From contig CP063375.1 in the NCBI GenBank assembly GCA_022813675.1, positions 632,001-696,000 on the forward strand: a DNA stretch of 64,000 bases. Direction: 5' to 3'. Each line of letters opens with the position of its first letter. The stretch's first letter is position 1. The translations under genes and the position numbers were made by a program. Source of the stretch: Deferribacteraceae bacterium V6Fe1 (GTDB taxonomy: Bacteria; Chrysiogenota; Deferribacteres; Deferribacterales; Deferrivibrionaceae). The notes under the pieces were generated by a model. It saw only the letters and a list, made by a program, of their open reading frames with translations, did not search any database and was not told the DNA's origin. Shown piece by piece: positions 15,293-29,063 of this stretch.

Positions 15293-15303
15293 ATTCTCAT
15301 GAC

Positions 15304-15328
15304 AAGCGGGGTTAAGCCCCGCTTTTTT
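15304..15328 (+). terminator. Rho-independent terminator
   Basis: AAGCGGGG and CCCCGCTT pair across a 5-base loop and are followed by a T-run. It starts 12 bases after the stop of the secreted Gly-rich protein and ends that transcript, so the next PepSY gene needs its own promoter, seen at 15402-15434. Confidence 0.9.
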
Positions 15329-15401
15329 ATTTTCAGACCATTCGGCAAATTAAACTCTATTATATACCGAAAAATTAATATTTTTATAAAATATTTCTAA
15401 T

Positions 15402-15434
15402 CTTAATCATTTCTTAACAAAAGCTGCCTATATT
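15402..15434 (+). promoter_or_regulatory. PmrA-box-like operator and promoter of the PepSY gene
   Basis: CTTAAT (15402-15407), CATTT, CTTAAC (15413-15418) is a direct repeat with 11-bp period fitting the PmrA/BasR consensus YTTAAK-N5-YTTAAK except for the final C. Ten bases later TATATT (15429-15434) can serve as -10, and no good -35 is present, as expected for an OmpR-family activated promoter. The predicted start near 15441 leaves a 40-base leader with AGGAGG. A similar element lies at 27543-27575. Confidence 0.6.
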
Positions 15435-15482
15435 GTAACTCGGAAAGCAACAAAAAAACAAATAACTCATTAGGAGGAAATT

Positions 15483-15899
15483 ATGAAAAAAGCACTAACA
15501 GCAATTTTAGTAGCAGGAGCATTGGTAGTAGGAGCAGGAAGCTTAAAATCAGCAAAAGCTGATTCTGAGGATGGTAAGACCTTAAACGGGACAATAAAAA
15601 TTAGTAGAGTACAAGAGTCTGACTATCCATTTATGGCAAATATAAGTATGGCTGAGGCAATTCAATATGCAAAGAAGAGTAATTCAGGCGGGAAAATTTT
15701 AAAAGCTGAATTGGAAGAAGAAAATGGTTTTTTAGTTTATGACGTTGAAGTTGTACAAAAAAATGGTGATACCGTGAAGCTTTCTATTGATGCAGGAAAT
15801 GGAAAAGTTTTAAACATTAAAAAAGATAAATCTGACAGCGACCACGAACATGATGATGAAAACGATGATGAAGAAAATGACAATGAAAAAGATTCATAA
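15483..15899 (+). CDS. Secreted PepSY-domain protein with acidic tail
   Basis: The 138-residue protein has a signal peptide (about 1-26, ending SAKA), then one PepSY domain: ISMAEAIQYAKK, ILKAELEEENGFLVYDVEVV and VKLSIDAGNGKVLNI. The last 25 residues are almost all Asp, Glu, Asn, Lys and His and look like a disordered cation-binding tail. PepSY proteins are frequent targets of adjacent two-component systems responding to metals or cationic peptides. RBS TAGGAGG lies 7 bases upstream. The promoter carries a PmrA-box-like repeat. Confidence 0.85.
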   Translation: MKKALTAILVAGALVVGAGSLKSAKADSEDGKTLNGTIKISRVQESDYPFMANISMAEAIQYAKKSNSGGKILKAELEEENGFLVYDVEVVQKNGDTVKLSIDAGNGKVLNIKKDKSDSDHEHDDENDDEENDNEKDS

Positions 15900-15956
15900 C
15901 ATATAACATACTATGTAAATTCACAAAATAGTAAAATTACCACCTCCTGTAGGATG

Positions 15957-15988
15957 CCGGATGTCATATGTAGACATCCGGTTTCTTT
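15957..15988 (+). terminator. Probable terminator between PepSY and phosphatase genes
   Basis: CCGGATGTC and GACATCCGG form a perfect 9-bp stem with a 7-base loop, followed by TTTCTTT. The tract is short and interrupted, so termination is probably partial and some transcripts may continue into the phosphatase and two-component genes. Confidence 0.55.
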
Positions 15989-16011
15989 GAAACCATTTAA
16001 AGAGGTTTGAC

Positions 16012-16566
16012 ATGAAAAATAAAAAACATATCGTAATATTTGTGTTAATTGTTTTCACACTAATAACAGGAAGATTAATATATCTCGAAGAACAAGGAAA
16101 CTTTTGGGAAATAAGCAAAAATCGTTTTTATCGTTCCGCACAATTGGATAGCGACGAGCTAGAGAAATACATCAAACAATATAAAATTAGAACCATTATT
16201 AATTTAAGAGGCGACTCAAATGCTCAATGGTACAAAGATGAAATAAATATTTGCAATAAATTTAACATAAATCATATAGATTTATCTCTTAGTGCCACAT
16301 CTGAACCCTCGGAGTCTAAAATAAACAAATTAATATCAATACTGCAAAAAGCATCTTTTCCGATATTGGTTCATTGTAAAGCAGGAGCGGATAGGTCAGG
16401 ACTTGCTACGGCCATATGGCTTGTCACATTTGAAAATAAACCTTATTATATTGCCAAACAGCAGTTATCACTAATATATGGTCATTTCTCTATAGGCCCG
16501 ACAAAGGTAATGGATAATTATCTAAAAAAGTGGTATGAAAAATATAAGAAAAAAGATGTAATATAA
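16012..16566 (+). CDS. Membrane-anchored dual-specificity/tyrosine phosphatase-like protein
   Basis: The 184-residue protein has an N-terminal membrane helix (about 7-24) and a cysteine-phosphatase domain. The P-loop is HCKAGADRSG with nucleophile C122 and R128, and the upstream FYRSAQLDSDEL and IINLRGD match bacterial PTP/DSP-like phosphatases. The single helix probably anchors the domain on the periplasmic side, so the substrate may be a lipid or glycan phosphate rather than a protein. It stands 43 bases before the response regulator. GAGG precedes the ATG. Confidence 0.82.
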   Translation: MKNKKHIVIFVLIVFTLITGRLIYLEEQGNFWEISKNRFYRSAQLDSDELEKYIKQYKIRTIINLRGDSNAQWYKDEINICNKFNINHIDLSLSATSEPSESKINKLISILQKASFPILVHCKAGADRSGLATAIWLVTFENKPYYIAKQQLSLIYGHFSIGPTKVMDNYLKKWYEKYKKKDVI

Positions 16567-16609
16567 TACACCATTTTTTTACTGACTAACTTTGAATGGG
16601 ATAAATAAA

Positions 16610-17290
16610 ATGCGTATACTAATAGTTGATGATGATACTTTTTTACTTGAACAAATCTTACTGGTCTTGAAAAAACAAAGATATTCTGTTGACACAGCTA
16701 AAAACGGGGAGGAAGCTCTATATAAAAGTTTTGAATACACTTACGACGCTATAATTTTAGACATAATGATGCCTAAAGTTGATGGCTTTACCGTTCTTAA
16801 AGAACTTAGAAATGCCAAAATAAATACACCAGTCATATTGCTTACTGCAAAAGGTGATGTCCAAAGTAAAATAAAAGGGCTTGATATTGGTGCGGATGAT
16901 TATCTTGCAAAGCCATTTTCCATGGATGAGCTTTTAGCCAGACTCAGAGCTATTTTAAGAAGATTTTCCTCACAAGCAGAGTCAATCTTGACAATCGGAG
17001 GTTTAAAACTTGATACTGTGAGTAGGACAGTGGCAATAAATAATAAATCAGTTGAATTAACTATAAAAGAATTCTCGATACTAGAGTTTCTGCTTTATAA
17101 TAAAAATAGAGTAGTTTCACGTTTTAGCTTAGCCGAACATGTTTGGGGTGATGAATTTGACCCGTTTAATATGTCAAACTTTATGGATGTTCATATAAAA
17201 AATCTGCGGGATAAACTTGCTGCAGCTGGCTGTAACAATTTCATTAAGACTAAAAGAGGTATAGGCTATATAATAGAGGAAGAAATTTGA
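16610..17290 (+). CDS. OmpR-family response regulator (plus arm)
   Basis: The 226-residue protein has a receiver domain with D8, D9, phosphoacceptor D51 and K101, and a winged-helix DNA-binding domain. The recognition helix contains FDPFNMSNFMDVHIKNLRDK, nearly the same as that of the regulator at 26284-26958. The ATG at 16610 begins MRILIVDDD; the TTG at 16592 would add an unlikely leader. Overlap with the kinase gene is three bases. PmrA/QseB-type regulators bind CTTAAT-like direct repeats, and such repeats are found at 15402 and 27559. Confidence 0.92.
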   Translation: MRILIVDDDTFLLEQILLVLKKQRYSVDTAKNGEEALYKSFEYTYDAIILDIMMPKVDGFTVLKELRNAKINTPVILLTAKGDVQSKIKGLDIGADDYLAKPFSMDELLARLRAILRRFSSQAESILTIGGLKLDTVSRTVAINNKSVELTIKEFSILEFLLYNKNRVVSRFSLAEHVWGDEFDPFNMSNFMDVHIKNLRDKLAAAGCNNFIKTKRGIGYIIEEEI

Positions 17291-18675
17291 AAAAGATTAA
17301 TGTAAAAACAAAAATTGCTCTATTAATATCATTTGCAGGTTTTTTAACTAGTCTGTTCTTTTCCTTAATCCTATATTTTGAGCTTGCCGAACAACCTTTT
17401 GACCTTTTGGATTCTATTCTAAAAGAGGAAGCTACAAGAGTCATAGAATATATTGATAGTGATTTGAAAACGGAACAAGATTTATTAAGAGACTTTAATC
17501 GTTATTGGGTTAAGATTTTCGATACTCAAAGTGGAAAAGTCATTTTTAAGTCTGAACTCGCAAAAAGAGTAAACATAAAACTTCTATCACCAGGCAAGAA
17601 AATAACATTCAAAAATGAAATTTCCAACAATCTAACTGCCTATACCACCGAAGAAAAAAAAGATGTTATAATCAGAGTTAACTCATATAATATTACTACC
17701 CCAAAAGGCACTTATATAGTTCAAATCGGTAGACATATTGAAGGTTTGGAAAATGAAGTTTTAAATCTTTTATCTGTTTTAGTGTATGGATTGATACTAT
17801 CAATGTTTTTATTATTTGTAATAAGTTGGGTTATAGCTGGAAAAATTCTAAAACCTGTTTCAATAATGAAGAATTTAACTCAAGAGATATCTGAAAAAAA
17901 TATTGGAGTTAGAGTGCCTGTAGGAGAAGCTGATGATGAATTTTCTCAACTGGCAAAAACTATTAATAAAATGCTTGACAGACTTCAATATTCTTTTAAA
18001 AAGCAAAAAGATTTTTTATATAATACGTCTCACGAGTTAAAAACACCTTTAAGTACAATAAGGATAGGTATTGATGAGTCTCTTTTAAATACCAGCGAAG
18101 AAATACCTGACAAAATAAAATATAATCTTACTATAATGAGAAAAAGAATCTTAAAATTAGAAAAACTAATTAAAGATCTTCTAAATCTCTCCGCACTTGA
18201 AGCAGAAAATGTTATTGATAAAAAGTCTATAAACATAGCTAACCTTTTAAAATCTCTTATCGATGATTATGAAATTTTGACAAAAGCTAAAAATATAAAG
18301 ATAAATTGTAATATTGAATATGAAAAAGATATTTTGTGCGATGAAAAAAAGATATATAGAGCATTGTCTAATCTAATTGACAATGCCATAAAATATAATA
18401 TTGAGAATGGTACAATAGAAATTTCTATTAAAAAATCAGGTAAATTTTTACTTATTTCTATATCTAATACCAGCATGGAGATTTCGAAAGAAGAACTGCC
18501 CCTTATTTTTGAACAATTTTACAGAATAGAAAAGTCGAGATCAGAAGATGAAGGTGGCTCAGGGCTGGGGCTTGCAATCGTAAAAAAAATTATTGAACTT
18601 CATAATGGCAATATTAAGGTTGAAAGTAAAAATGGCTGGACAACAATAAGTATATCTCTACCGATAAGCAATTAA
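17287..18675 (+). CDS. Sensor histidine kinase (plus arm)
   Basis: The 462-residue protein has two membrane helices (about 10-30 and 163-185) flanking a periplasmic sensor of about 130 residues, then a HAMP domain, the HisKA motif TSHELKTPLST and an ATPase domain (NLIDNAIKYN; GGSGLGLAIVKK). The start is TTG at 17287, overlapping the regulator stop. The periplasmic domain has no recognisable fold and no acidic metal cluster, so its signal is unknown. It pairs with the regulator just upstream. Confidence 0.92.
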   Translation: MKKINVKTKIALLISFAGFLTSLFFSLILYFELAEQPFDLLDSILKEEATRVIEYIDSDLKTEQDLLRDFNRYWVKIFDTQSGKVIFKSELAKRVNIKLLSPGKKITFKNEISNNLTAYTTEEKKDVIIRVNSYNITTPKGTYIVQIGRHIEGLENEVLNLLSVLVYGLILSMFLLFVISWVIAGKILKPVSIMKNLTQEISEKNIGVRVPVGEADDEFSQLAKTINKMLDRLQYSFKKQKDFLYNTSHELKTPLSTIRIGIDESLLNTSEEIPDKIKYNLTIMRKRILKLEKLIKDLLNLSALEAENVIDKKSINIANLLKSLIDDYEILTKAKNIKINCNIEYEKDILCDEKKIYRALSNLIDNAIKYNIENGTIEISIKKSGKFLLISISNTSMEISKEELPLIFEQFYRIEKSRSEDEGGSGLGLAIVKKIIELHNGNIKVESKNGWTTISISLPISN

Positions 18676-18717
18676 GCAATTTTTAACTAACAACAAGCCA
18701 ATAATATGGAGGCTGTA

Positions 18718-19620
18718 ATGAAATTAGGTTTGGCACTTGGTGGTGGAGCAGCTCGAGGTTGGGCTCACATAGGTGTAATTAGAGAATTAGAAGCGCACGG
18801 TATTATCCCAGATATAATTTGCGGGACATCTATAGGCGCATTAGTAGGTGGCTCATATGCAGCCAATAATCTCGACAAGCTTGAAAATGTGGTTTGTTCT
18901 TTGACGAAAATAAATATTATAAAATATATTGGGCTAAATATTCATAAGTCAGGCATTATAAATATGAGCAGATTAGAGGAATTTTTAAAAGAAAATGTCG
19001 CAGATGAAAGTATATCAATTGAGGATTTGTCAAAGACATATGGTGCGGTTGCTACAGATATAAGAAATGGCAAAGAGGTCATACTTACCAAAGGTTCCCT
19101 TCTAAAAGCAATTTGTGCATCCATCTCTTTCCCCGGCCTTTTCCCACCAACAAATCACAAAGACAAATGGCTCATTGACGGAGGGTTAGTAAATCCCATA
19201 CCTATATCTTTATGTAGATATTTAGGTGCAGATATTGTCATTGCCGTTAATTTGAATGAATATATTATTTCAAAATCTATTCTGGATTCTGATTTAGAAA
19301 TTTATACAGATAATAATTTCTTAAATAAAATGGCTGCTTTTTTTGAGAACGTTACCAATCATATATACATACAAAATAACGGAGATAAATCACCATCGCT
19401 TTTTGAAACAGTTGAAAATGCGGTAAATATTACTCAAAACACAATCGCAAAATGTAATATGGTTGCTTATCCGCCAAACATATTATTATCACCAAAGCTA
19501 ACCAATATTGGGTTATTGGATTTTCATTATGCAACGCAAGCAATAGAGGGAGGGAGACGAATCACAAAAAGTAAAATAAATGAAATAAAAAAAGTTTGCT
19601 CCAAGTGGCAAATAAATTAG
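18718..19620 (+). CDS. Patatin-like phospholipase (RssA/YchK-like)
   Basis: The 300-residue protein begins MKLGLALGGGAARGWAHIGV. It has the oxyanion GGGxxRG, nucleophile S38 in GTSIG and D154 in DGG, the catalytic Ser-Asp dyad of PNPLA enzymes. The ATG at 18718 is placed 5 bases after GGAGG; the ATG at 18706 overlaps that site. No signal peptide is visible, so it acts on inner-leaflet lipids. It ends the plus arm and faces the minus-arm operon 13 bases away. Confidence 0.88.
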   Translation: MKLGLALGGGAARGWAHIGVIRELEAHGIIPDIICGTSIGALVGGSYAANNLDKLENVVCSLTKINIIKYIGLNIHKSGIINMSRLEEFLKENVADESISIEDLSKTYGAVATDIRNGKEVILTKGSLLKAICASISFPGLFPPTNHKDKWLIDGGLVNPIPISLCRYLGADIVIAVNLNEYIISKSILDSDLEIYTDNNFLNKMAAFFENVTNHIYIQNNGDKSPSLFETVENAVNITQNTIAKCNMVAYPPNILLSPKLTNIGLLDFHYATQAIEGGRRITKSKINEIKKVCSKWQIN

Positions 19621-19633
19621 GATAACTACCCAA

Positions 19634-20578
19634 TTACTTTTTTATGGTATCTGTTGTAAGATAATATTCATTAAAAAAGAATAAGATAATTCCAAAAGCA
19701 AGAGGTATCAAAAAATAAACTAATCTGAATATCAACAGTGAACCTACCAGTGTGTTTACATCATAGTAGTTTTTTAAATAGAAAATCATTATACCATCAA
19801 AAACACCTGCTCCACCGGGGACATGGCTGCTAACTGCAGTAATTTGTGATACCAAGTAAATAGGTAAATATTTGAAAAAGTCTATATTATGGTTGGGGAG
19901 TAAAAAGTAAAAAATCAGTCCTAAAAGAAGCCAATCAAGAGTGGATATAGTAAACTGAAGTAATAGTATCTTTGGTTTTGCAATTGGATAAAGAGTGACT
20001 CCTGAAACGATTCTTTTCTGTTTTAGATAGGAGAGTATAAAAAATATTAAAACAATTATTAAAGCAATAAGCCCCAGTAGCTTGGCTTGAATGGTAAAGT
20101 TAATAAATGGTAATGACAACGAATACCCGGGCTCTATAAATAAAAACACTATAAAACTAAGAGCAATAAGCCCTAACCAATAAATCCATGAAAATAAAAT
20201 CATATAATTGGTAATAAGTATTGGGTTCATGCCTATTTTAGTCAGATATCTAAATCTCAAAGCACCCCCCATAATCGCACCAAAACCTAAATTATTGTTC
20301 AGAATAAATGATGTTAATGAGTATAAAAATACTTTTTTATAAGGTATTTTTAACTTTATCTGTTTTACCGTAAGCAAATCATAAAAGGTAACAATGAAAT
20401 AATTAAAAGCAGTCAATAAAACCGCCCAAAAAATCATTTTACTATCAATAAATAAAACGGCACTTTTTACCTTTTCCCACGATATGCTGTGAAATATATC
20501 TACAATGAAAACAATAGTAAAGTACAGAATAAATAATATTATTAATATATTAACTGCTTTTAATATATATTTCTTCAT
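19634..20578 (-). CDS. YbhN/UPF0104-family integral membrane protein (MprF flippase-like)
   Basis: The 314-residue protein has eight to nine membrane helices. Conserved patches of the lysylphosphatidylglycerol-synthase transmembrane family are present: LNNNLGFGAIMGGALRFRYL and SSHVPGGAGVFDG. There is no aminoacyltransferase domain. MprF membrane domains flip lipids; this stand-alone version could move the product of the glycosyltransferase in the same operon, but that is inference. It is the last gene of the operon and overlaps the phosphoesterase by four bases. Confidence 0.82.
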   Translation of the reverse strand: MKKYILKAVNILIILFILYFTIVFIVDIFHSISWEKVKSAVLFIDSKMIFWAVLLTAFNYFIVTFYDLLTVKQIKLKIPYKKVFLYSLTSFILNNNLGFGAIMGGALRFRYLTKIGMNPILITNYMILFSWIYWLGLIALSFIVFLFIEPGYSLSLPFINFTIQAKLLGLIALIIVLIFFILSYLKQKRIVSGVTLYPIAKPKILLLQFTISTLDWLLLGLIFYFLLPNHNIDFFKYLPIYLVSQITAVSSHVPGGAGVFDGIMIFYLKNYYDVNTLVGSLLIFRLVYFLIPLAFGIILFFFNEYYLTTDTIKK

Positions 20579-21621
20579 TTTTCTTTTTTTCTCTTTGAAA
20601 ATAGATATTCAAAAAACATATCGACCAACAATGTTATAATAAAGAAAATGAGTATAATTTGTTTTAAATATATTTTGCCTAAAGTAGCAAAATAAAGCTT
20701 GGCAATATTCCAATACTTTCTAATTCCAATTAAAACAACATTTTTATCTATTTTTACAACTTCGGTATTAATATCCTTATCGTTCACATTCACTTTGACA
20801 TAGTGATAAAAATTTGAGCCAGGATCAGTCCCCTTTAGCTCTGCGCCTGCACCGCCAGTGATTATATGTTTTAATCCTCTTTTAGTATAGGCGTAATAAC
20901 CATGTATATGTGACTCAAAAAGTATTGTGACATTATACTTTATAAATAAATCTTCTAACTTTCTTGCAAAATCAGGATCACTTAATGCATGTGCAAACTT
21001 AATTCCACCTCCATTAAAGTCTCTCGGGTCCCAAAGAGGAACATGCATAAAAATAAATCTATATTTTAAATTCTGAGAATTTTTTAACTGCTCCTCAAGC
21101 CAAAACAATTGCTCATCAGATATGTTTCTTTCATTACTATTATCAAGCATAATAAATTTTGAATTCCCCAACGTAAAACTATAATAGAATTTTCCAAAAA
21201 TCGTATGATAAAAATAGTGATTTTCAAAAGCTACATCGTGATTGCCAGGTAATACCAAAGTAGGTATCTGAATATTTTTCCACTGATTTAAAAAAGCCTG
21301 ATAAGTTTCTTTAGTCGGATACATTACCAAATCACCGCCAATTATTGTAAAAAGTAGCCTTTCATCCTTATTTATCTTTTCTATAACATAATTAAAAATT
21401 GAAGAATTTTTATTATCTCCCAAAACTGCAAAAGAAAACTCTCCACCTTTGTACCTATCATTTATTTCCTGCAAAGATTTGAAGTTTAAATCGTGCTCTT
21501 CTATCTTTTTCAAATCACCTAATTCTGTCCAACCCCAAAATATAATTATTAAAAAAATTAAAATTAGTCTTAGATATTTTCTTTTACTGAAATAACCTGT
21601 AATTATTTCACCTGTCTTCAT
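20575..21621 (-). CDS. Membrane-anchored calcineurin-like metallophosphoesterase
   Basis: The 348-residue protein has an N-terminal helix (about 15-32), a phosphoesterase domain and a C-terminal helix (about 318-338), so it is tethered at both ends. Metal motifs are VLGDNK, GGDLV, PGNHD, HVPLWD and ESHIHGYY. The first motif lacks the usual DxH histidine, as in several lipid or nucleotide hydrolases of this superfamily. The catalytic domain probably faces the periplasm. It overlaps the glycosyltransferase by 14 bases. Substrate unknown; a lipid-linked phosphate is plausible. Confidence 0.82.
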   Translation of the reverse strand: MKTGEIITGYFSKRKYLRLILIFLIIIFWGWTELGDLKKIEEHDLNFKSLQEINDRYKGGEFSFAVLGDNKNSSIFNYVIEKINKDERLLFTIIGGDLVMYPTKETYQAFLNQWKNIQIPTLVLPGNHDVAFENHYFYHTIFGKFYYSFTLGNSKFIMLDNSNERNISDEQLFWLEEQLKNSQNLKYRFIFMHVPLWDPRDFNGGGIKFAHALSDPDFARKLEDLFIKYNVTILFESHIHGYYAYTKRGLKHIITGGAGAELKGTDPGSNFYHYVKVNVNDKDINTEVVKIDKNVVLIGIRKYWNIAKLYFATLGKIYLKQIILIFFIITLLVDMFFEYLFSKRKKEK

Positions 21622-22759
21622 AATTTACCTCATTTTGGCTGATAATTTTTACTATTTCTTCAGAAGCAAATGGCTTTTTTATGTTATTTATATTTTCTCT
21701 CATTAACATTAACTTAGATTCATTATACAACAGTCCTAACACTTTTTGCACTAGCTCATGTGAATCTTCTTCAGAAAATTCTGCACAACCATTTTTAGTT
21801 AAATATAATGCATTATTTGTTTCCTGATAAGGAATAGGATCAATCAGAAACATCGGCACTCCACAAGCTAAAGCCTCACTGACAGTCAAGCCGCCTGGCT
21901 TGGTAATAACCAAATCCGAAGCAGTTAAGTACTCCTCAATATTATTTACAAAACCTAATTTCTGTAAATTTATATATTCGTTGCTTTCAAAATATTTAAT
22001 TTTTGCTAATAAGTTTTTATTTCGTCCGGCAATCACTATTAAGTTTAGGTATTTATTAGAAATAAATACCTCTTGAATTATATCAAATATTTTCTTTTCG
22101 TTAATAGCACTCCCAATGAGAATCAAAGTTTTTCTTGAGTCATCAATACCTAATCTCAATTTAAGCTCTTCAGGCTTTAATGATTTACTAAATTTATTCG
22201 CAATAGGGATACCGGTTATATAAATTTTATCGCTACTGACTCCGATCTTTATTAACTCATTTTTTACTTCATTATTTGCTACAAAGTAGTAATCAACATT
22301 TTTATCATACCACATCTTATGTAATCCATAGTCGGTAATGGTTACATATATCTTTCCATGGAATACCCCGTTATCTTTCATCCTAGATAAAATATTAGCC
22401 GGGAGAAAATGTGTGCAAACTGCTATTTCCACTGCATTGTCTTCAATAAAAGATACAAAACCTTCAACGTTATCAAGACTTAACTTATCTATAATATTAA
22501 GTATTTTGCTTTTATCCCTATTCCTATCAGTGATTTTATAAATTGCCTTACAAGCTAAATGGGAATGCTCACCGATAAAATCATACACAGTACTATACGA
22601 CCAGTTGAACAACTTATTTGTAAAAAAAAGTACATCGGTAACATAGTAGCAGATATTATGTTTAGCAAAACCCTCGGCTAGAGCTTTAGCAGCAATTTTA
22701 TGACCGTTACCTGCCGTTACATAAAATAACCCAATTGGTTTACTAGCAACCATAACCAT
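21608..22759 (-). CDS. MGDG-synthase/MurG-like glycosyltransferase (GT28-type)
   Basis: The 383-residue protein has an N-terminal domain starting IGLFYVTAGNGHKIAAKAL, matching the monogalactosyldiacylglycerol synthase N-domain (GxGHxxAAxAL). The C-terminal nucleotide-sugar domain contains ITKPGGLTVSEALACGVPM. Relatives transfer sugar from UDP-sugars to diacylglycerol on the inner leaflet. It is preceded by the DedA-PAP2 gene with a 9-base gap. A glycolipid product, for example during phosphate limitation or cationic-peptide stress, fits the operon but is not proven. Confidence 0.85.
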   Translation of the reverse strand: MVMVASKPIGLFYVTAGNGHKIAAKALAEGFAKHNICYYVTDVLFFTNKLFNWSYSTVYDFIGEHSHLACKAIYKITDRNRDKSKILNIIDKLSLDNVEGFVSFIEDNAVEIAVCTHFLPANILSRMKDNGVFHGKIYVTITDYGLHKMWYDKNVDYYFVANNEVKNELIKIGVSSDKIYITGIPIANKFSKSLKPEELKLRLGIDDSRKTLILIGSAINEKKIFDIIQEVFISNKYLNLIVIAGRNKNLLAKIKYFESNEYINLQKLGFVNNIEEYLTASDLVITKPGGLTVSEALACGVPMFLIDPIPYQETNNALYLTKNGCAEFSEEDSHELVQKVLGLLYNESKLMLMRENINNIKKPFASEEIVKIISQNEVNYEDR

Positions 22760-22768
22760 TCTCCATAA

Positions 22769-24925
22769 TTATTTAGTATTTACAATATGATTAGACGAAC
22801 TGAATTTTAGTTCCAAGATTTTCCCATCAAAATAACTTTCTCTGTCATTATATTTGAATTTTGTAGGTGTACTTATTTGTAGCTCTTCAATATTTATTTT
22901 TTCTGACAGTATCTTTTTTATATCATTGTACACATTTACACTTGAAGCTTCATAATCGACTATTGGAATGGTAATTTTATCCCCTATTTTCTTAAATCCG
23001 ATCTCTTTTACAATTGATATCACATATACGTTATTATTCTCAAATATCTTATGTGTATCCCACAATTTTATTACAATCCTTGGCAAAGATTTGTTATTAT
23101 CAAACAAATATACAAATACATAATCTTGTGGCCTGTTATCATAAAAATCATAAAACACGGGGAGGTATTTAATATCATTTTTAAGATATGAATTTATTGT
23201 TTGCCCAATCTTTTTTGCGGATTTCCTCTCATATTCTCTAAAACCAGAGTTAATCAAAACATGCTCAAACAAATTTATATCGCCGATAAACACGGCCGAA
23301 ACAGGCTTTTTATCTGTCCCAAAAATATCACTGGAAAAAAGCTTCAATTTTCCATTTTGAAAACTTTCTAATAAATTATTGCTCAAATGCTCATATTTTA
23401 CGCCAATAATCTCAGTCTTTTCTTTTAATACCCCTTCTGTTTTAAAATATGAATAAGCAAAATTAACGGATATGGCTAATATTAAAATCAAAGAACACAG
23501 TATTGATTTTACACTATTCTCACTTTCACTCAATTCCCTAATTTGCAATTTTATATTATAATATTCATATGCAGTTATCACAACCGACAACCATAACATT
23601 CCTAAAACATACGCACCAACTACATCGCTAAACCAATGCACTCCTAAATAAATTCTACTTAGCCCAATAAATATAGCAAATGTTATTGCAAGAATCATAT
23701 AAGTATTTCTTAAAAATTTCTTTTTAAAAAACTTAAATATAAGATATCCGGCAAAACCATATAAAATAAATGATGTAAATGCATGACCACTGGGGAATGA
23801 TGGAGTTAGCTCGTTAAAAAAATGGTATATTGCATTAGGGCGCTCTCTATTAAAAGCATACTTAAGCGCACCCAAAAATAACAAACCACCGCTAAAATTT
23901 ATTATGTAAAATATCAATTCTCTATTTTTTTTATTAAAAAACAGTATAATCAAACCGGTTATGAAAAAAATTATGACCGGGATTTGACTCCCTAATTCGG
24001 TAAAAAAGATAAAGACTATATTAACAAAAAACGAATGGAAACTTTGCAACATATAGAAAAGGTTTATATCAAAACTAACCAAAGGATCATTGAAAATAAT
24101 ATCTTCTACAATGCCAAAAAAGATATATGCAAATAACATTGCAAAAATAATTCCTGTAGTTAAAACCAATCCTGTTTCTCTCTTTGGGTTAAGTCTCTTT
24201 TTTATTATTTCAAACACCTGTGGAAATTTATTTTTTATAAGCTTGATAATAAAAGGTTCAATTTTTTCATCCTGAGTAGACAATATGAGTATTTTAATTA
24301 ATTTACTTATAAATTTAAATAAAATTTTAGACACTTTAATGATAATATAAACTAACAAAATCAGGCTTATAAATAATAGACTGAGTTTCCCGAAAACTTC
24401 TTCCACATAATGCCAACTGGCACCAAATAAATAACCACCTCCTATATAAAGAATACCCCATAATATGCCACTTATGACTGCATAAAAATTAAACTTTATC
24501 TCTTCCATCTTCATGAGCCCGGCAAGAAATGGCACCACAGGCCTTACTGGACCTACAAATCGCCCAAAAAAAACACTTTTGCCTCCATGTTTTTGGAAAA
24601 AGACTTTACCTAATTCGATATACTTTTCTATTTTTTTATATATTTTGCTATTCTGTATTTTATTGCCGTAATATTTTGCCAAATAATAGCTGGCTACATC
24701 CGCAATAATAGCTCCAGCTACTGACACAGCAATTAAAATCCATACATTTAAAATCCCCTTAGACGCCAAAAAACCGGTAGTTACCGTAATTATTGCTCCT
24801 GGGATAATAATACCTATAAAAGCAAAAGATTCTGCAAACGACATTAAAAATGATATTACATAAATTAAAGCCTGATGGTTACTTATTGATATTATTGCAT
24901 TCTTAACAAATTCTTCCATCTTCAT
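22769..24925 (-). CDS. DedA-PAP2-LssY three-domain membrane protein
   Basis: The 718-residue protein combines a DedA/SNARE-associated domain (about 1-215, with AFIGIIIPGAIITVTTGFL and FFGRFVGPVRPVVPFLAG), a PAP2 phosphatase domain (about 255-460) and a C-terminal LssY_C-like domain (about 480-700). The PAP2 motifs KYAFNRERP, FPSGHA and SRIYLGVHWFSD are complete. DedA proteins recycle undecaprenyl phosphate or other lipids across the membrane, so flipping and dephosphorylation are joined in one chain. It overlaps the kinase gene by 23 bases. Confidence 0.88.
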   Translation of the reverse strand: MKMEEFVKNAIISISNHQALIYVISFLMSFAESFAFIGIIIPGAIITVTTGFLASKGILNVWILIAVSVAGAIIADVASYYLAKYYGNKIQNSKIYKKIEKYIELGKVFFQKHGGKSVFFGRFVGPVRPVVPFLAGLMKMEEIKFNFYAVISGILWGILYIGGGYLFGASWHYVEEVFGKLSLLFISLILLVYIIIKVSKILFKFISKLIKILILSTQDEKIEPFIIKLIKNKFPQVFEIIKKRLNPKRETGLVLTTGIIFAMLFAYIFFGIVEDIIFNDPLVSFDINLFYMLQSFHSFFVNIVFIFFTELGSQIPVIIFFITGLIILFFNKKNRELIFYIINFSGGLLFLGALKYAFNRERPNAIYHFFNELTPSFPSGHAFTSFILYGFAGYLIFKFFKKKFLRNTYMILAITFAIFIGLSRIYLGVHWFSDVVGAYVLGMLWLSVVITAYEYYNIKLQIRELSESENSVKSILCSLILILAISVNFAYSYFKTEGVLKEKTEIIGVKYEHLSNNLLESFQNGKLKLFSSDIFGTDKKPVSAVFIGDINLFEHVLINSGFREYERKSAKKIGQTINSYLKNDIKYLPVFYDFYDNRPQDYVFVYLFDNNKSLPRIVIKLWDTHKIFENNNVYVISIVKEIGFKKIGDKITIPIVDYEASSVNVYNDIKKILSEKINIEELQISTPTKFKYNDRESYFDGKILELKFSSSNHIVNTK

Positions 24926-26282
24926 TCCTCAAATTTATTGGTAACTTAATTATAAACTCTGTGTACGTTTCTCCATCACTTTCAACAGAGATTTTACCAT
25001 TATGGATTTTAGCTATCTCTTTTACAATTGACAGACCTATGCCAAAGCTACCGTCAATGTTTGATCTTGATTTATTAATTTTAAAAAAACGATTAAAAAT
25101 AAATGCTTTTTCTTCGGAATTTATACCTTTCCCTGTGTTATAAACTGATAATATTATTTCATTATTTTCTTTATAAAATTTAATTCTGACAACCCCCTTC
25201 GTATTGCAATACTTAACGGCATTGTCTAACAGATTCATAAACAATCTGTTTAGCAACTCTTTATTCCCTCTGATTTTTATGTTGTTTTCTATTTCTTTTT
25301 TCAAGAGAATATTTTTATTCTCTATGTTTATCTCACAAATTTCTAATAACTCTTTTATCAGTTGACTTAAATTTAATTCTCTAAAGTCTATAGAATTTAT
25401 GTTAGATTCTAACGATAGGAGCATAAGTAAATTTTTGATTAATAACGAAAGCCTTTGAATTGTTTTGTAGAGCTGAGCTATATCTTCTTTATCTTTCTCT
25501 TTCAGCTCGGTATTCTGAATTAATTTTTCCAAAGATAACAGTATTATAGTAAAAGGTGTTTTTAATTCATGTGAAATATCTGAAATAAAATCTTTTTGTA
25601 ACTTAAACTGCCTGTCTAATCTTTGAAGCATTTCATTCAATGAACTTATTAATAAACAGATTTCATCATTTTCTTTAGGTGTTGGTATTTTGATTGATAA
25701 GTTCGAAGTGTTAACTTCCGATATGTTTTTGATAACATTTTGAAACGGTAAAATGATTTTATTTAATAACCAATTAGTAAGTAGCAATAATATTACCATA
25801 CTCGATATAAATATCAAAAATAATATTTTGCTTAACTGTACAATCTGTTCATCTATATTTTCTATAGATTTTGCTATTAATAAAGTATAGTTATTTTTGA
25901 GTTTGTACAATTTTACTCTTAAAAGCACCTCGTTCCATTCATCCTGTCCTAAATCTATAATTTCTTTTGAGATTTTTGTTCTGTAGTTATAGGTATCTTT
26001 TTTGTTATAAATAGGGACAAAAACTTTTTGAGAAATTTTATTAGCAAAGATAATATTATTTTTATCTGATATAATCTTAATCAGATATTTTTCGTTATTG
26101 ATATCTTCAATTTTATTTAAGTATATTTTATTCTTAACTTTATTAGCAATAATATCTAATTCATAACTAATTGAGTTGTAAATTATATTTGTCATATAAA
26201 AAAAAATTGTCAAAGAAAATAATAGTATTAATAGAGATAAAGATAAAAAAATTAAAATACGTATTCTGTTTTTTATGCTCAT
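24903..26282 (-). CDS. Sensor histidine kinase (minus arm)
   Basis: The 459-residue protein has two membrane helices (about 10-30 and 150-170), a periplasmic sensor of about 120 residues rich in Lys, Asn and Ile, a HAMP domain, HisKA (ISHELKTPFTII) and ATPase motifs (NLLDNAVKYC; GSFGIGLSIVKE). It begins one base after the regulator stop. Its periplasmic region differs from that of the plus-arm kinase, so the two probably sense different signals while feeding related regulators. Confidence 0.9.
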   Translation of the reverse strand: MSIKNRIRILIFLSLSLLILLFSLTIFFYMTNIIYNSISYELDIIANKVKNKIYLNKIEDINNEKYLIKIISDKNNIIFANKISQKVFVPIYNKKDTYNYRTKISKEIIDLGQDEWNEVLLRVKLYKLKNNYTLLIAKSIENIDEQIVQLSKILFLIFISSMVILLLLTNWLLNKIILPFQNVIKNISEVNTSNLSIKIPTPKENDEICLLISSLNEMLQRLDRQFKLQKDFISDISHELKTPFTIILLSLEKLIQNTELKEKDKEDIAQLYKTIQRLSLLIKNLLMLLSLESNINSIDFRELNLSQLIKELLEICEINIENKNILLKKEIENNIKIRGNKELLNRLFMNLLDNAVKYCNTKGVVRIKFYKENNEIILSVYNTGKGINSEEKAFIFNRFFKINKSRSNIDGSFGIGLSIVKEIAKIHNGKISVESDGETYTEFIIKLPINLRNEDGRIC

Positions 26283-26283
26283 T

Positions 26284-26958
26284 TCAACCTTTTAAAATAT
26301 ATCCTATACCCCTCGCTGTCAGGATAATTTCGTGTGCATCATCACCAATCTTTTTTCTTAAATTTTTAATATGAACATCTAAAAAATTTGACATACTAAA
26401 AGGGTCAAACTCGTCACCCCAAACATGTTCAATAATTGTAAATTTTGAAACAACTTTATTTTTATTCAAACCTAAGTATTCAATTATATCGTATTCTTTC
26501 GTTGTAAGTTGTATTTCACTATCGCCAAGAAAAACTTTTCTAATATTCATATCTATTTTTAAATTGCCTATAGATATAACTTGTTCATATTGAGAAAAAG
26601 TTCTTCTTAGAATTGCTTTAACTCTGGCAATTAATTCTGCCATTGAAAAAGGTTTTGATAAATAGTCATCAGCTCCGCTATTTAAGCCTTTTACCCTATC
26701 ATCAATTTCACCTTTTGCAGATATCATCAATACCGGAGTTAATATTTTATTATCTCTGATATTTTTTAAAATTTCGTATCCATTCATTCCAGGCAGCATA
26801 ATATCAAGTATAATTAAGTCATATTGCAAAGATAATATTCTTTCCAATCCATTTGCGCCATCAAAACAGGTATCAACCGAATAATGTTCATCTTCCAAAA
26901 TGTTTGCAATTTGTTTATTTAACTGTCTTTCATCTTCAATAACAAGTAATTTAGGCAT
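26284..26958 (-). CDS. OmpR-family response regulator (minus arm)
   Basis: The 224-residue protein has D52 as phosphoacceptor (IILDIMLPG), K in LSKPFS and a winged helix. Its recognition region FDPFSMSNFLDVHIKNLRKK differs from the plus-arm regulator by only a few conservative changes, so both probably bind the same DNA repeat. The gene lies one base after the PAP2 stop and one base before the kinase. It would control its own operon through the repeat at 27559-27575. Confidence 0.92.
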   Translation of the reverse strand: MPKLLVIEDERQLNKQIANILEDEHYSVDTCFDGANGLERILSLQYDLIILDIMLPGMNGYEILKNIRDNKILTPVLMISAKGEIDDRVKGLNSGADDYLSKPFSMAELIARVKAILRRTFSQYEQVISIGNLKIDMNIRKVFLGDSEIQLTTKEYDIIEYLGLNKNKVVSKFTIIEHVWGDEFDPFSMSNFLDVHIKNLRKKIGDDAHEIILTARGIGYILKG

Positions 26959-26959
26959 T

Positions 26960-27535
26960 TTATCCTTTATAATTTATAAATGGAATTCTTCTAAGTAATT
27001 TATCAGCAATTTTATTTAAAAGAATGTTTAATTTCTCTAATTTAGATTGTAAGGTATATATTATCAATACAGAAATTATCGATACAAAAAATGAACCTAA
27101 AATATCTAAAGGGAAATGAACTCCCACATAAATTCTGCTAAAACCAATAATTACCGCCAATATAAAAAGCAAAAATCCTATAGACTTTTTTCCAAATATA
27201 ATCGTTGAAATAGATATGGAAAATACAAGCGTGGCATGATCGCTCGGGAAAGATGTTTCAATGGTGTGATTTATTAGTGTATGTCCTAATCCAAGCTCAA
27301 AAGGTCTTGGATGATAATAAAAAATTGTGATTATAAGATTTAATAACAACCCCAACAATGATGAATAAAATACATACAGAGCTTTATCTCTATTATAAAA
27401 TAAATATAAAATGATTAGTATGATTGCGTATAAGTATGGTGAATATTTTGTAATAAGCACAAAAACATGATCTAATATAGCACTCCCATTTAATCCATTA
27501 ATTAGCAAGAATAATTCAATATTATACTTTTCCAT
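26960..27535 (-). CDS. PAP2-family phosphatase, BcrC/YbjG-like undecaprenyl diphosphatase
   Basis: The 191-residue protein has about five helices. Motifs are YYHPRPF, FPSDHATLVFS and SRIYVGVHFPLDILG; the PSDH form and short RPF motif are typical of BcrC-type undecaprenyl-diphosphate phosphatases that confer bacitracin tolerance. It is the first gene of the seven-gene operon. There is no Shine-Dalgarno before the ATG, and the predicted -10 ends 7 bases upstream, so the message may be leaderless. Confidence 0.85.
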   Translation of the reverse strand: MEKYNIELFLLINGLNGSAILDHVFVLITKYSPYLYAIILIILYLFYNRDKALYVFYSSLLGLLLNLIITIFYYHPRPFELGLGHTLINHTIETSFPSDHATLVFSISISTIIFGKKSIGFLLFILAVIIGFSRIYVGVHFPLDILGSFFVSIISVLIIYTLQSKLEKLNILLNKIADKLLRRIPFINYKG

Positions 27536-27542
27536 GTTTGTT

Positions 27543-27575
27543 ATTTATCACATCATTTATGAAGAAATTATGAAG
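27543..27575 (-). promoter_or_regulatory. PmrA-box-like operator and promoter of the lipid operon
   Basis: On the minus strand CTTCAT (27575-27570), AATTT, CTTCAT (27564-27559) forms a direct repeat with 11-bp period. Ten bases on, ATAAAT (27548-27543) can be the -10. Geometry equals the element at 15402-15434, where repeat and -10 are also 10 bp apart. The half-sites differ from the PmrA consensus at one position (CTTCAT for CTTAAT). The transcript would start at or just before the ATG at 27535. Confidence 0.55.
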
Positions 27576-27656
27576 CTTGTAATTATTTACACCTATACAA
27601 TACGGACAATTTAAAAGTGAAATAATCCACTAAAAATAAAAAGAATCTTAAAATAT

Positions 27657-28928
27657 TTACCCCATATGTATAATAAATTCAGCTAAAAAACAAAATGCCA
27701 TTATTGAAATAGACATAGATGCACCAATGATATTTGAATGATACTGCTGATTAAGTAAAACAAAAATTACTATCACACAAAGAAAAAAGCCTATAACTGG
27801 AATAGTCTTATTGCTGTTTAATTGCTGGTGCAATCTAAATCCCGTAAAATTTACAGTAGCAAATATAAGCAAAAAACCAACACTACCAGCTGTTGAAATG
27901 CTCTCTAAATCAAGAATATTCACCAATATAAAAGTTACATCTGCTGTGATCATTAATCCTGTAGGCTTATCCCAAAGTCGAGCAAGAAAATGATGTGGGA
28001 GCTCATCATCTTCGGCTATTTCGAAATTTACTCTGCTAGCGCCTAGTAAAGATGCATTTATAGCTGAAAATGTTGAAATCAATGCAGTAATAGTAATGGC
28101 TGTAAAACCAATTTTACCCAACATAGGTTTGGTTGCTTCAGCCAAGACATAATCCCCCGAGCTAATGCTATTTTTGAAAGTGGTAGCGAACCTACGGTGA
28201 CTAATGGTATAGCTATATAAAGCAATATGGCGAAACTTACTGAAACATAATATGCCATGGGAATATTTTTCTCGGGGTTAATACTATCAGGAGCTGCATT
28301 GGCTATCAGTTCAAACCCCCCATATGCCACAAAAATAACCATTCCTCTTGTAAATAGCTTTAAGGGTGATTCCCATTTGTACAGGTATAATTGATCACTA
28401 TGTAAGAGCTTCCAATCAAACCATAGAAGCCAATAAAAATAAACACAGTTAAAATAATCAATTTGATAATTACAGCATATGCTTCTATTTACCTACCACA
28501 GTAATACTAAAATAGTTTATAAATGTAGCTAAAATGATTACAAAACTGGCATAAATATGAAAATCAACTGGTCTGCAATTTGTAATACTAATTAAATTGA
28601 GTGTATAAAAACCAAATGCCGAAGCATAAAGTGAAAGCACTATTATATAGCTTACTCACAGCTGATTACTAATAGCTCCACTAAATGCTGTTTTGTCAAA
28701 AGCTTAATTATAAACTTTACTGTACCTCCTCTATCGGGATATCTTGTGGAAAGTTTTGAATAGCTGTAAGAAGTTATTAACGCTAAAATACCTGCAAATA
28801 AAAAAAACAATTGGTGTTCCCCCTTTTGCTAAGGAAACAGCCAGTCCAAGTACCGCAAAAATCCCACCACCAACCATCCCCCCAATACCTATAGAAACTG
28901 CCTCTTTTAACCCTATTCTTTTATCCAT
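27657..28928 (-). pseudogene. Decayed APC-family amino-acid permease
   Basis: The N-terminus is clear (LKEAVSIGIGGMVGGGIFAVLG, the APC GIGxMIGxGIF motif), as are YGGFELIANAAPDSINPEKN and the C-terminal helices. The frame is broken by a slip in an 8-T run (28800-28807), a further shift near 28700, an in-frame TGA (28656-28658), a TAG with frameshift near 28486, a shift near 28370-28395 and one near 28150. Concatenated frames give about 420 residues of permease. Several independent lesions make a sequencing error an unlikely explanation. It sits just upstream of the lipid operon promoter. Confidence 0.9.
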
Positions 28929-29063
28929 TTTTCCATTTTATGTTTATCTAAATTACATATACAATTGCATATTCTACTTGTCCAAATTTGTTGTCAAACA
29001 TAGTGTTAACTCAACAAATGAAAATTACATTCCATTTTTAAAAAATTATATTACAATAAGCCC

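Follow-up and report, generated by a model that had tools for sequence, protein, structure and literature searches.

A putative PmrA-like-regulated envelope-lipid operon on a genomic island of Deferribacteraceae bacterium V6Fe1 may couple glycolipid export to undecaprenyl-phosphate recycling

In C. difficile, the genes of the two-component system HexRK lie beside hexSDF, which encodes an MGDG_synth-type glycosyltransferase, a modifying enzyme and an MprF-like flippase, is controlled by this system and is associated with resistance to daptomycin and bacitracin (PMC10128005). The gpgSDF genes of P. aeruginosa encode a glycosyltransferase, a modifying enzyme and a flippase which make and probably move a sugar-modified lipid (PMC12713373). 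In the PlcP-Agt pathway a phosphoesterase and a glycosyltransferase swap phospholipid for glycolipid (PMC4796936, PMC8528852), and glycolipids of this type protect P. aeruginosa against polymyxin B (PMC8528852). The DedA proteins UptA and PA4029 are undecaprenyl-phosphate flippases (PMC11474028, PMC12893004). In P. aeruginosa, flipping of undecaprenyl phosphate by a DedA protein is needed for polymyxin resistance via aminoarabinosylation of lipid A, and the DedA-PAP2 protein PA4011 affects the emergence of colistin resistance (PMC12893004). Here we describe a run of seven genes within a 64,000-nucleotide stretch of Deferribacteraceae bacterium V6Fe1 (contig CP063375.1, positions 632,001 to 696,000; hereafter the window). 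On balance we favour, with modest confidence, the view that this run is a mobile, PmrA-like-regulated envelope-lipid operon which couples the synthesis and export of a glycolipid to the recycling of undecaprenyl phosphate.

The seven open reading frames occupy the minus strand from 19634 to 27535 and encode, in 5' to 3' direction, a PAP2 phosphatase, a response regulator (RR), a histidine kinase (HK), a DedA-PAP2-LssY_C fusion, a glycosyltransferase (GT), a metallophosphoesterase (MPE) and a flippase (Table 1). Successive junctions measure +1, +1, -23, +9, -14 and -4 bases. The sequence-only reading had described seven genes on one strand separated by at most nine bases or overlapping, which is exact, as are all of its coordinates, and Pfam and NCBIfam agree with all domains it had named in the seven proteins. 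Its label "YbhN-like" for the last gene is loosely right in designating a membrane flippase, but the flippase domain of MprF is the closer relative. The gene layout suggests transcription as one operon. Terminator-like matches within the run are at expectation (3 versus 2.5 in shuffled sequence), and so is a scan for internal promoters, both scans being uninformative. No Rfam RNA, tRNA or tmRNA was found in the window, and PADLOC gave no matches for the five operon proteins other than RR and HK.

The candidate undecaprenyl arm consists of the PAP2 protein and the fusion. The former scores 102 bits against the undecaprenyl-diphosphate phosphatase family NF008813 (cut-off 229) and possesses the catalytic motifs PSDH and SRIYVGVHFPLD (pattern SRxxxxxHxxxD). 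The fusion yields partial NCBIfam matches to UptA, SepP and PRK10847, and its DedA part combines a match to the VTT fold with an FGRFVGPVR motif region which is kept across 61 aligned fusions. For the LssY_C domain (22769-23470) a confident fold was predicted from a 54-sequence alignment (mean pLDDT 84.1), in which a single tryptophan is invariant in 54 of 54 sequences. Comparison of this model with solved structures gave no fold match (best E 0.7), and LssY_C may represent a possible new fold. Literature searches on the three-domain fusion and on LssY found nothing relevant. The sensor kinase encoded between these two genes shows hydrophobic segments at residues 3-36 and 146-180, a putatively external domain of about 110 residues and the H-box SHELKTP.

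The candidate glycolipid arm is formed by the last three genes. Among the NCBIfam families, the GT best matches the diglucosyl diacylglycerol synthase PRK13609 (206 bits; cut-off 500) and, in the PDB, a processive diacylglycerol beta-glucosyltransferase (3.8e-38). The flippase aligns through residues 7-306 to positions 2-300 of the 841-position MprF profile NF033480 (178 bits; cut-off 600), its PDB matches are MprF chains (1.3e-28), and the C-terminal aminoacyl-transferase domain of bifunctional MprF is absent. In the MPE, the metal ligands D69, D97, N127, H128, H193, H238 and H240 are fully or almost fully conserved across the stand-alone relatives. As positively charged residues precede its first and follow its second hydrophobic segment, the phosphoesterase domain is predicted to lie outside the cytoplasm, i.e. 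in the periplasm. Its predicted model (mean pLDDT 80.6) is nearest to the glycerophosphodiesterase GpdQ and to purple acid phosphatases. In two unrelated genomes, stand-alone relatives of the MPE adjoin a radical-SAM-like protein of about 500 residues (L061:9808-12591, L066:9324-11944).

These assignments also permit other functional explanations. One of them regards the locus as a counterpart of PlcP-Agt which renovates lipids in order to spare phosphate: the MPE would act as a phospholipase C, PAP2 would free phosphate and the GT would replace phospholipid by glycolipid under phosphate shortage, with only an incidental part left to the undecaprenyl arm. A metallophosphoesterase beside a GT is indeed the PlcP-Agt layout (PMC4796936, PMC8528852), and both the proximity of the MPE model to GpdQ and the presence of two PAP2 domains in the operon fit this idea. 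The MPE belongs to the superfamily of PlcP, but it is double-anchored, predicted to be periplasmic and without a match to a PlcP-type family in NCBIfam. According to another explanation, the operon belongs to a regulon modifying lipid A or the outer membrane, in which the fusion recycles the undecaprenyl phosphate that an ArnT-like transferase sets free, PAP2 and MPE strip phosphates from lipid A, and GT and flippase serve lipid A or a carrier-linked sugar rather than a diacylglycerol glycolipid. The effect of the DedA-PAP2 protein PA4011 on colistin resistance (PMC12893004) speaks in its favour, as does the finding that ArnT-like transferases, together with two-component genes, adjoin fusion genes at two loci elsewhere (L083, L095). 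The operon itself, however, holds neither ArnT nor aminoarabinose genes, the GT scores far higher against diacylglycerol glucosyltransferases than against other families, and the flippase is of the MprF type.

Upstream of the PAP2 gene lies a proposed response-regulator box, CTTCAT-AATTT-CTTCAT, followed at a distance of 8 nt by the -10-like element TGATAA. It was recognised by a comparison of upstream regions, in which a 31-bp segment preceding PAP2 in the window matches, at 93.5%, a site about 300 bp before the GT gene of G016, a genome from another family of the same order. The PAP2 promoter of G016 carries CTTCAC-GAATT-CTTCAT with equal spacing to TGTTAT. A genome-wide search for the strict pattern CTTCAYN5CTTCAYAAA gave a single hit in the window genome, ahead of PAP2, and two in G016, one ahead of PAP2 and one ahead of GT; the reversed pattern, used as a control, gave one hit and none, respectively. 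We estimate the chance that one of three relaxed hits in the 2.5-Mb genome of G016 falls into the about 310 bp before GT at about 4e-4. Since the strict box precedes the single unit of the window and both units of G016, there is good evidence that one shared regulator would control the whole set. PmrA boxes consist of six-base half-sites 5 bases apart (PMC3973317), a feature which also supports the lipid A explanation. The TCAT repeats of the window box are spaced by 11 bp and thereby resemble the Pho box (consensus in PMC8528852), as the phosphate-sparing explanation would have it. Yet the regulator itself scores 211 bits against its top NCBIfam family, the CopR/CzcR type, versus 180 against PhoB, and the strict box is limited to the locus instead of being spread across a Pho regulon. 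Control by a global PhoB, which we had considered, was rated lower on account of the uniqueness of the strict box and the CopR/CzcR-like regulator. Weighing this evidence, we regard the phosphate-sparing explanation as unlikely and the lipid A explanation as quite unlikely; both nevertheless are live rivals. In the window and in G016 alike the start codon of PAP2 follows the -10-like element by only about 10 nt (27535-27550), suggesting that the PAP2 mRNA is leaderless or nearly so.

The operon resides on an island of 27-31% GC which is embedded in flanks of 35% GC on both sides. In the two congeneric genomes G001 and G002 these flanks are contiguous: after a terminator-like hairpin matching 15302-15335, sequence corresponding to 29029 sets in within about 15 bp. 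The island shows no recognisable integrase or transposase. The operon appears to have been acquired horizontally, as part of an island which is absent from the closest sequenced relatives. Among 46 genomes of the order, the full fusion is present in two, namely the window genome and G016. The latter contains all seven orthologues within 12 kb, arranged in two minus-strand blocks: GT, MPE and flippase lie upstream, followed by an intact amino-acid permease gene, a gene resembling MarC and, on the opposite strand, one resembling a transposase, and then by PAP2, RR, HK and fusion. As G016 keeps all seven genes as neighbours, their arrangement is not due to chance. GT, MPE and flippase are 82-88% identical to their G016 orthologues, the regulator is 79% identical, and PAP2, kinase and fusion reach 60-63%; the controls give 67% (GyrB) and 48% (the flanking methyltransferase), indicating that at least the block of GT, MPE and flippase was exchanged horizontally. 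(A second contig of G016 harbours a divergent extra gyrB-like gene, G016:C2:212273-214195.) Judged from gene order, the attachment of the glycolipid genes to the 3' end of PAP2-RR-HK-fusion in the window reflects a rearrangement between the two genomes, irrespective of which order is the older.

This raises the question whether two independent operons, PAP2-RR-HK-fusion and GT-MPE-flippase, were merely joined by the history of the island, by rearrangement only and with no common pathway. Their separation and opposite order in G016, their unequal divergence from it and the fact that fusion genes mostly occur without glycolipid genes would agree with such a scenario. It is opposed by the identical box pattern before both units of G016 and by the occurrence of equivalent sets in single runs of distant genomes. 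As a contig scan with the window GT alone had given no relatives, an alignment of the fusion was used as query, and the scan of named genomes with it yielded 80 loci. In Desulfacinum hydrothermale DSM 13146 (L082), DedA, PAP2, fusion, a YbhN-type flippase, a phosphoesterase-GT4 protein, RR and HK follow each other on one strand with little spacing. Nearly the same run, plus an acyltransferase-like gene, is found in G158 and G385, which belong to another phylum, and in G158 an intact stand-alone phosphoesterase adjoins the cluster. The order fusion-LPLAT-YbhN-phosphoesterase-GT4 is present in a bin of the FCB group (L086) and in Desulfuromusa (L092), while in L081 a glycosyltransferase, DedA, a phosphoesterase (53% identity to the window MPE) and the fusion are consecutive, phosphoesterase and fusion thus being joined. 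For the GT4 half of the fused Desulfacinum protein, the top match is alpha-monoglucosyldiacylglycerol synthase, at 182 bits. Going by these best matches, the GTs of the two clusters would come from separate families, share a predicted class of product and fill equivalent places. Upstream of related clusters, CTTCAT-N5-CTTCAT with TATATT 10 nt downstream is found about 390 bp away in G385 and, heading a same-strand run, 3.7 kb away in G158. In view of these findings, we consider a chance union of two unrelated operons improbable.

Two claims of the sequence-only reading have thereby gained support: control of the set by one regulator, through the strict box found once in the window genome and before each half-operon of G016, and the pairing of undecaprenyl-phosphate and glycolipid arms, through the equivalent clusters of Desulfacinum, G158 and G385 with their partly non-orthologous GTs and flippases. 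The same clusters answer its question about co-conservation, as the gene set recurs and the reading is not refuted; all seven orthologues are, moreover, found together in a second genome, G016, though in two blocks. The set does not form a stable unit, given the split in G016, the absence of the full fusion from 44 of 46 genomes and the residence on a horizontally acquired island together with a second two-component system. The reading thus stands in part, and both island and box had escaped it.

Several observations weigh against a regulated operon that couples the two arms. The arms are separate transcription units in G016, and the relaxed 17-bp pattern CTTCAYN5CTTCAY is not rare, with 2-7 copies in each genome. 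Just 3 of the 80 named loci combine the fusion with the flippase and phosphoesterase-GT4 set (77 show no such set, many of them on short contigs), which makes the coupling recurrent but uncommon, a minority arrangement. None of the operon's genes attains the NCBIfam equivalog cut-off for its predicted activity, and the DedA part of the fusion does not appear to reveal lipid specificity. Motif I of the MPE is without the canonical histidine and has K71 instead, and in eight of eight aligned relatives fused to GT4 the metal ligands are lost. The phosphoesterase domain of the fused proteins may therefore have turned structural or sensory, and, taking K71 into account, the fold may be conserved for something other than catalysis. 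We had considered the phosphoesterase-GT4 fusion as proof of the MPE being an active partner enzyme and dropped this argument because of the lost ligands. Proteins combining a membrane-anchored, ligand-less phosphoesterase with a cytoplasmic GT4 form a widespread class, often encoded beside a YbhN-type flippase and also present on Rhodobacterales plasmids (examples in Table 1).

The coupled operon nevertheless is the interpretation we prefer, and the Hex/Gpg design, the part of DedA flipping in polymyxin resistance and the precedent of PlcP-Agt glycolipids lead us to favour PmrA-like remodelling of the outer leaflet, with a sustained supply of the lipid carrier, as its purpose. The ArnT-like transferases and two-component genes next to fusion genes at L083 and L095 speak for this interpretation as well. 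Operon transcription, signal, DNA binding, substrates, topology and direction of lipid flow are predicted from sequence in what follows. The PmrA/CopR-like two-component system would sense an envelope condition, whereupon the regulator would activate the promoter before PAP2 via CTTCAT-N5-CTTCAT, so that a single transcript would cover the genes of the system itself and the five lipid genes. PAP2 and fusion would dephosphorylate undecaprenyl diphosphate, or other lipid phosphates, at the outer face and bring undecaprenyl phosphate back inward. The UgtP-like enzyme would glycosylate diacylglycerol or a related lipid, the MprF-type flippase would move the product outward, and the membrane-anchored periplasmic MPE might trim a phosphate-containing head group, a step that would either provide diacylglycerol or complete the product. 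The outer leaflet would then be expected to contain less anionic phospholipid, and the cell to have more lipid carrier at its disposal during stress. That the functional set recurs in distant bacteria from partly unrelated genes suggests that the glycolipid and carrier jobs belong together. Tentatively, and with somewhat less than even confidence, we extend this to an envelope-stress regulon that is mobile and recurrent: both arms would be under PmrA-like co-regulation, and different phyla would have assembled it independently, using glucosyltransferases and flippases that are in part not orthologous and a membrane-anchored phosphoesterase-fold protein as third partner. If so, lipid-carrier recycling and glycolipid export would constitute a single regulated bacterial response, linking two separately studied resistance routes, DedA and undecaprenyl phosphate for polymyxin and Hex-type glycolipids for daptomycin and bacitracin. 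It would also open two orphan parts to genetic study, LssY_C and the double-anchored phosphoesterase which can be fused to glucosyltransferases.

Table 1. Positions of the island, its genes and putative boxes in the window, and of related proteins at other loci (locus handle before the colon).
Feature	Position	Strand	Remarks
Genomic island, 13.7 kb	15336..29028		clean empty site in two congeners, G001 and G002
Second PmrA-type box (putative), CTTAAT-CATTT-CTTAAC	15402..15418	+	TATATT 10 nt downstream; precedes left-arm genes (PepSY)
PepSY protein, signal-like N-terminus, 138 aa	15483..15899	+	PF03413
Dual-specificity-type phosphatase, N-terminal hydrophobic segment, 184 aa	16012..16566	+	HCKAGADRSG; PF22741, PF13350
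Second response regulator (RR2), CopR/PmrA-like	16592..17290	+	65% identity to Desulfacinum cluster regulator
Second sensor kinase (HK2)	17287..18675	+	40% identity to Desulfacinum cluster kinase
RssA-like patatin phospholipase	18706..19620	+	convergent with operon 3' end; PF01734, PRK10279 233 bits
Stand-alone MprF flippase domain, without synthase, 314 aa	19634..20578	-	PF03706 (LPG_synthase_TM)
Calcineurin-like metallophosphoesterase (MPE), 348 aa	20575..21621	-	hydrophobic segment at both ends; PF00149
MGDG_synth/GT28-type glycosyltransferase, UgtP-like, 383 aa	21608..22759	-	PF06925 6.7e-26
DedA(VTT)-PAP2-LssY_C fusion, 718 aa	22769..24925	-	PF09335 1.7e-16, PF01569, PF14067
Sensor histidine kinase, 459 aa	24903..26282	-	HAMP, HisKA, HATPase_c
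OmpR-family response regulator, 224 aa	26284..26958	-	PF00072, PF00486
PAP2 phosphatase, UppP/BcrC/YbjG-like, 191 aa	26960..27535	-	PF01569 1.6e-16
Proposed response-regulator box	27559..27575	-	-10-like element at 27550-27545
APC-family permease, frameshifted pseudogene	27657..28930	-	blastn to G016 copy 74% over 1.2 kb
Phosphoesterase-GT4 class examples	L029:5845-8079, L030:5851-8079, L028:7941-10145, L082:8449-10665, L071:7680-9926		

The left arm of the island carries, on the plus strand, the genes of the PepSY protein, the dual-specificity-type phosphatase, the second two-component system and the patatin; these are followed by the convergent seven-gene run and the decayed permease gene. 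A piece 40% identical to the PepSY protein occurs upstream of the Desulfacinum cluster, and the cluster regulators of Desulfacinum, G158 and G385 are 64-65% identical to RR2. No match to the dual-specificity-type phosphatase was obtained in G002, G016, G009, G011, G158 or G385. A relative of it adjoins a 1082-aa protein at L073:6860-10776 which combines an MGDG-type glycosyltransferase with LVIVD beta-propeller repeats. The patatin gives a weak PADLOC match (E 6.8e-06). The permease gene, intact between the half-operons of G016, has a further relative in a lipid cluster of G256 (L064:5971-7296).

Compared with the systems described so far, no account of this gene combination was found in the literature searched, which covered few subscription journals. 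With a PmrA-type regulon the locus shares tandem six-base half-sites in N5 spacing, present as putative sites at both promoters of the island. The cluster of Desulfacinum, G158 and G385 corresponds to it in DedA/PAP2, fusion, flippase, phosphoesterase fold plus glucosyltransferase, RR and HK, but its GT4 is fused to a degenerate phosphoesterase, its flippase is of the YbhN type and its two-component system, at the 3' end, is nearer to the second one of the window. UptA, PA4029 and PA4011 have the DedA domain in common with the fusion, and PA4011 the DedA-PAP2 architecture, to which the window protein adds LssY_C and a location in a putative regulated glycolipid operon. PlcP-Agt resembles the locus in the metallophosphoesterase adjoining a glycosyltransferase; it differs in being linked to the Pho regulon and in that the described pathway is without flippase, DedA or PAP2. 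The gpgSDF operon likewise comprises GT, modifying enzyme and flippase in a Gram-negative bacterium, though its GT is a GT4 GlcNAc-phosphatidylglycerol synthase, its modifying enzyme a deacetylase and its flippase of the YbhN type, and neither a regulator nor an undecaprenyl arm is described in it. HexRK-hexSDF shares with the window the MGDG_synth-type GT gene, the MprF-like flippase gene and the adjacent RR and HK genes, but belongs to a Gram-positive host and has neither a DedA-PAP2-LssY fusion nor a PAP2 gene reported. Its middle gene encodes a polysaccharide deacetylase where the window has a PF00149 metallophosphoesterase, an exchange which excludes membership in hexSDF but leaves room for a comparable mode of action. 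By this comparison, HexRK-hexSDF, together with gpgSDF, is the nearest described design.

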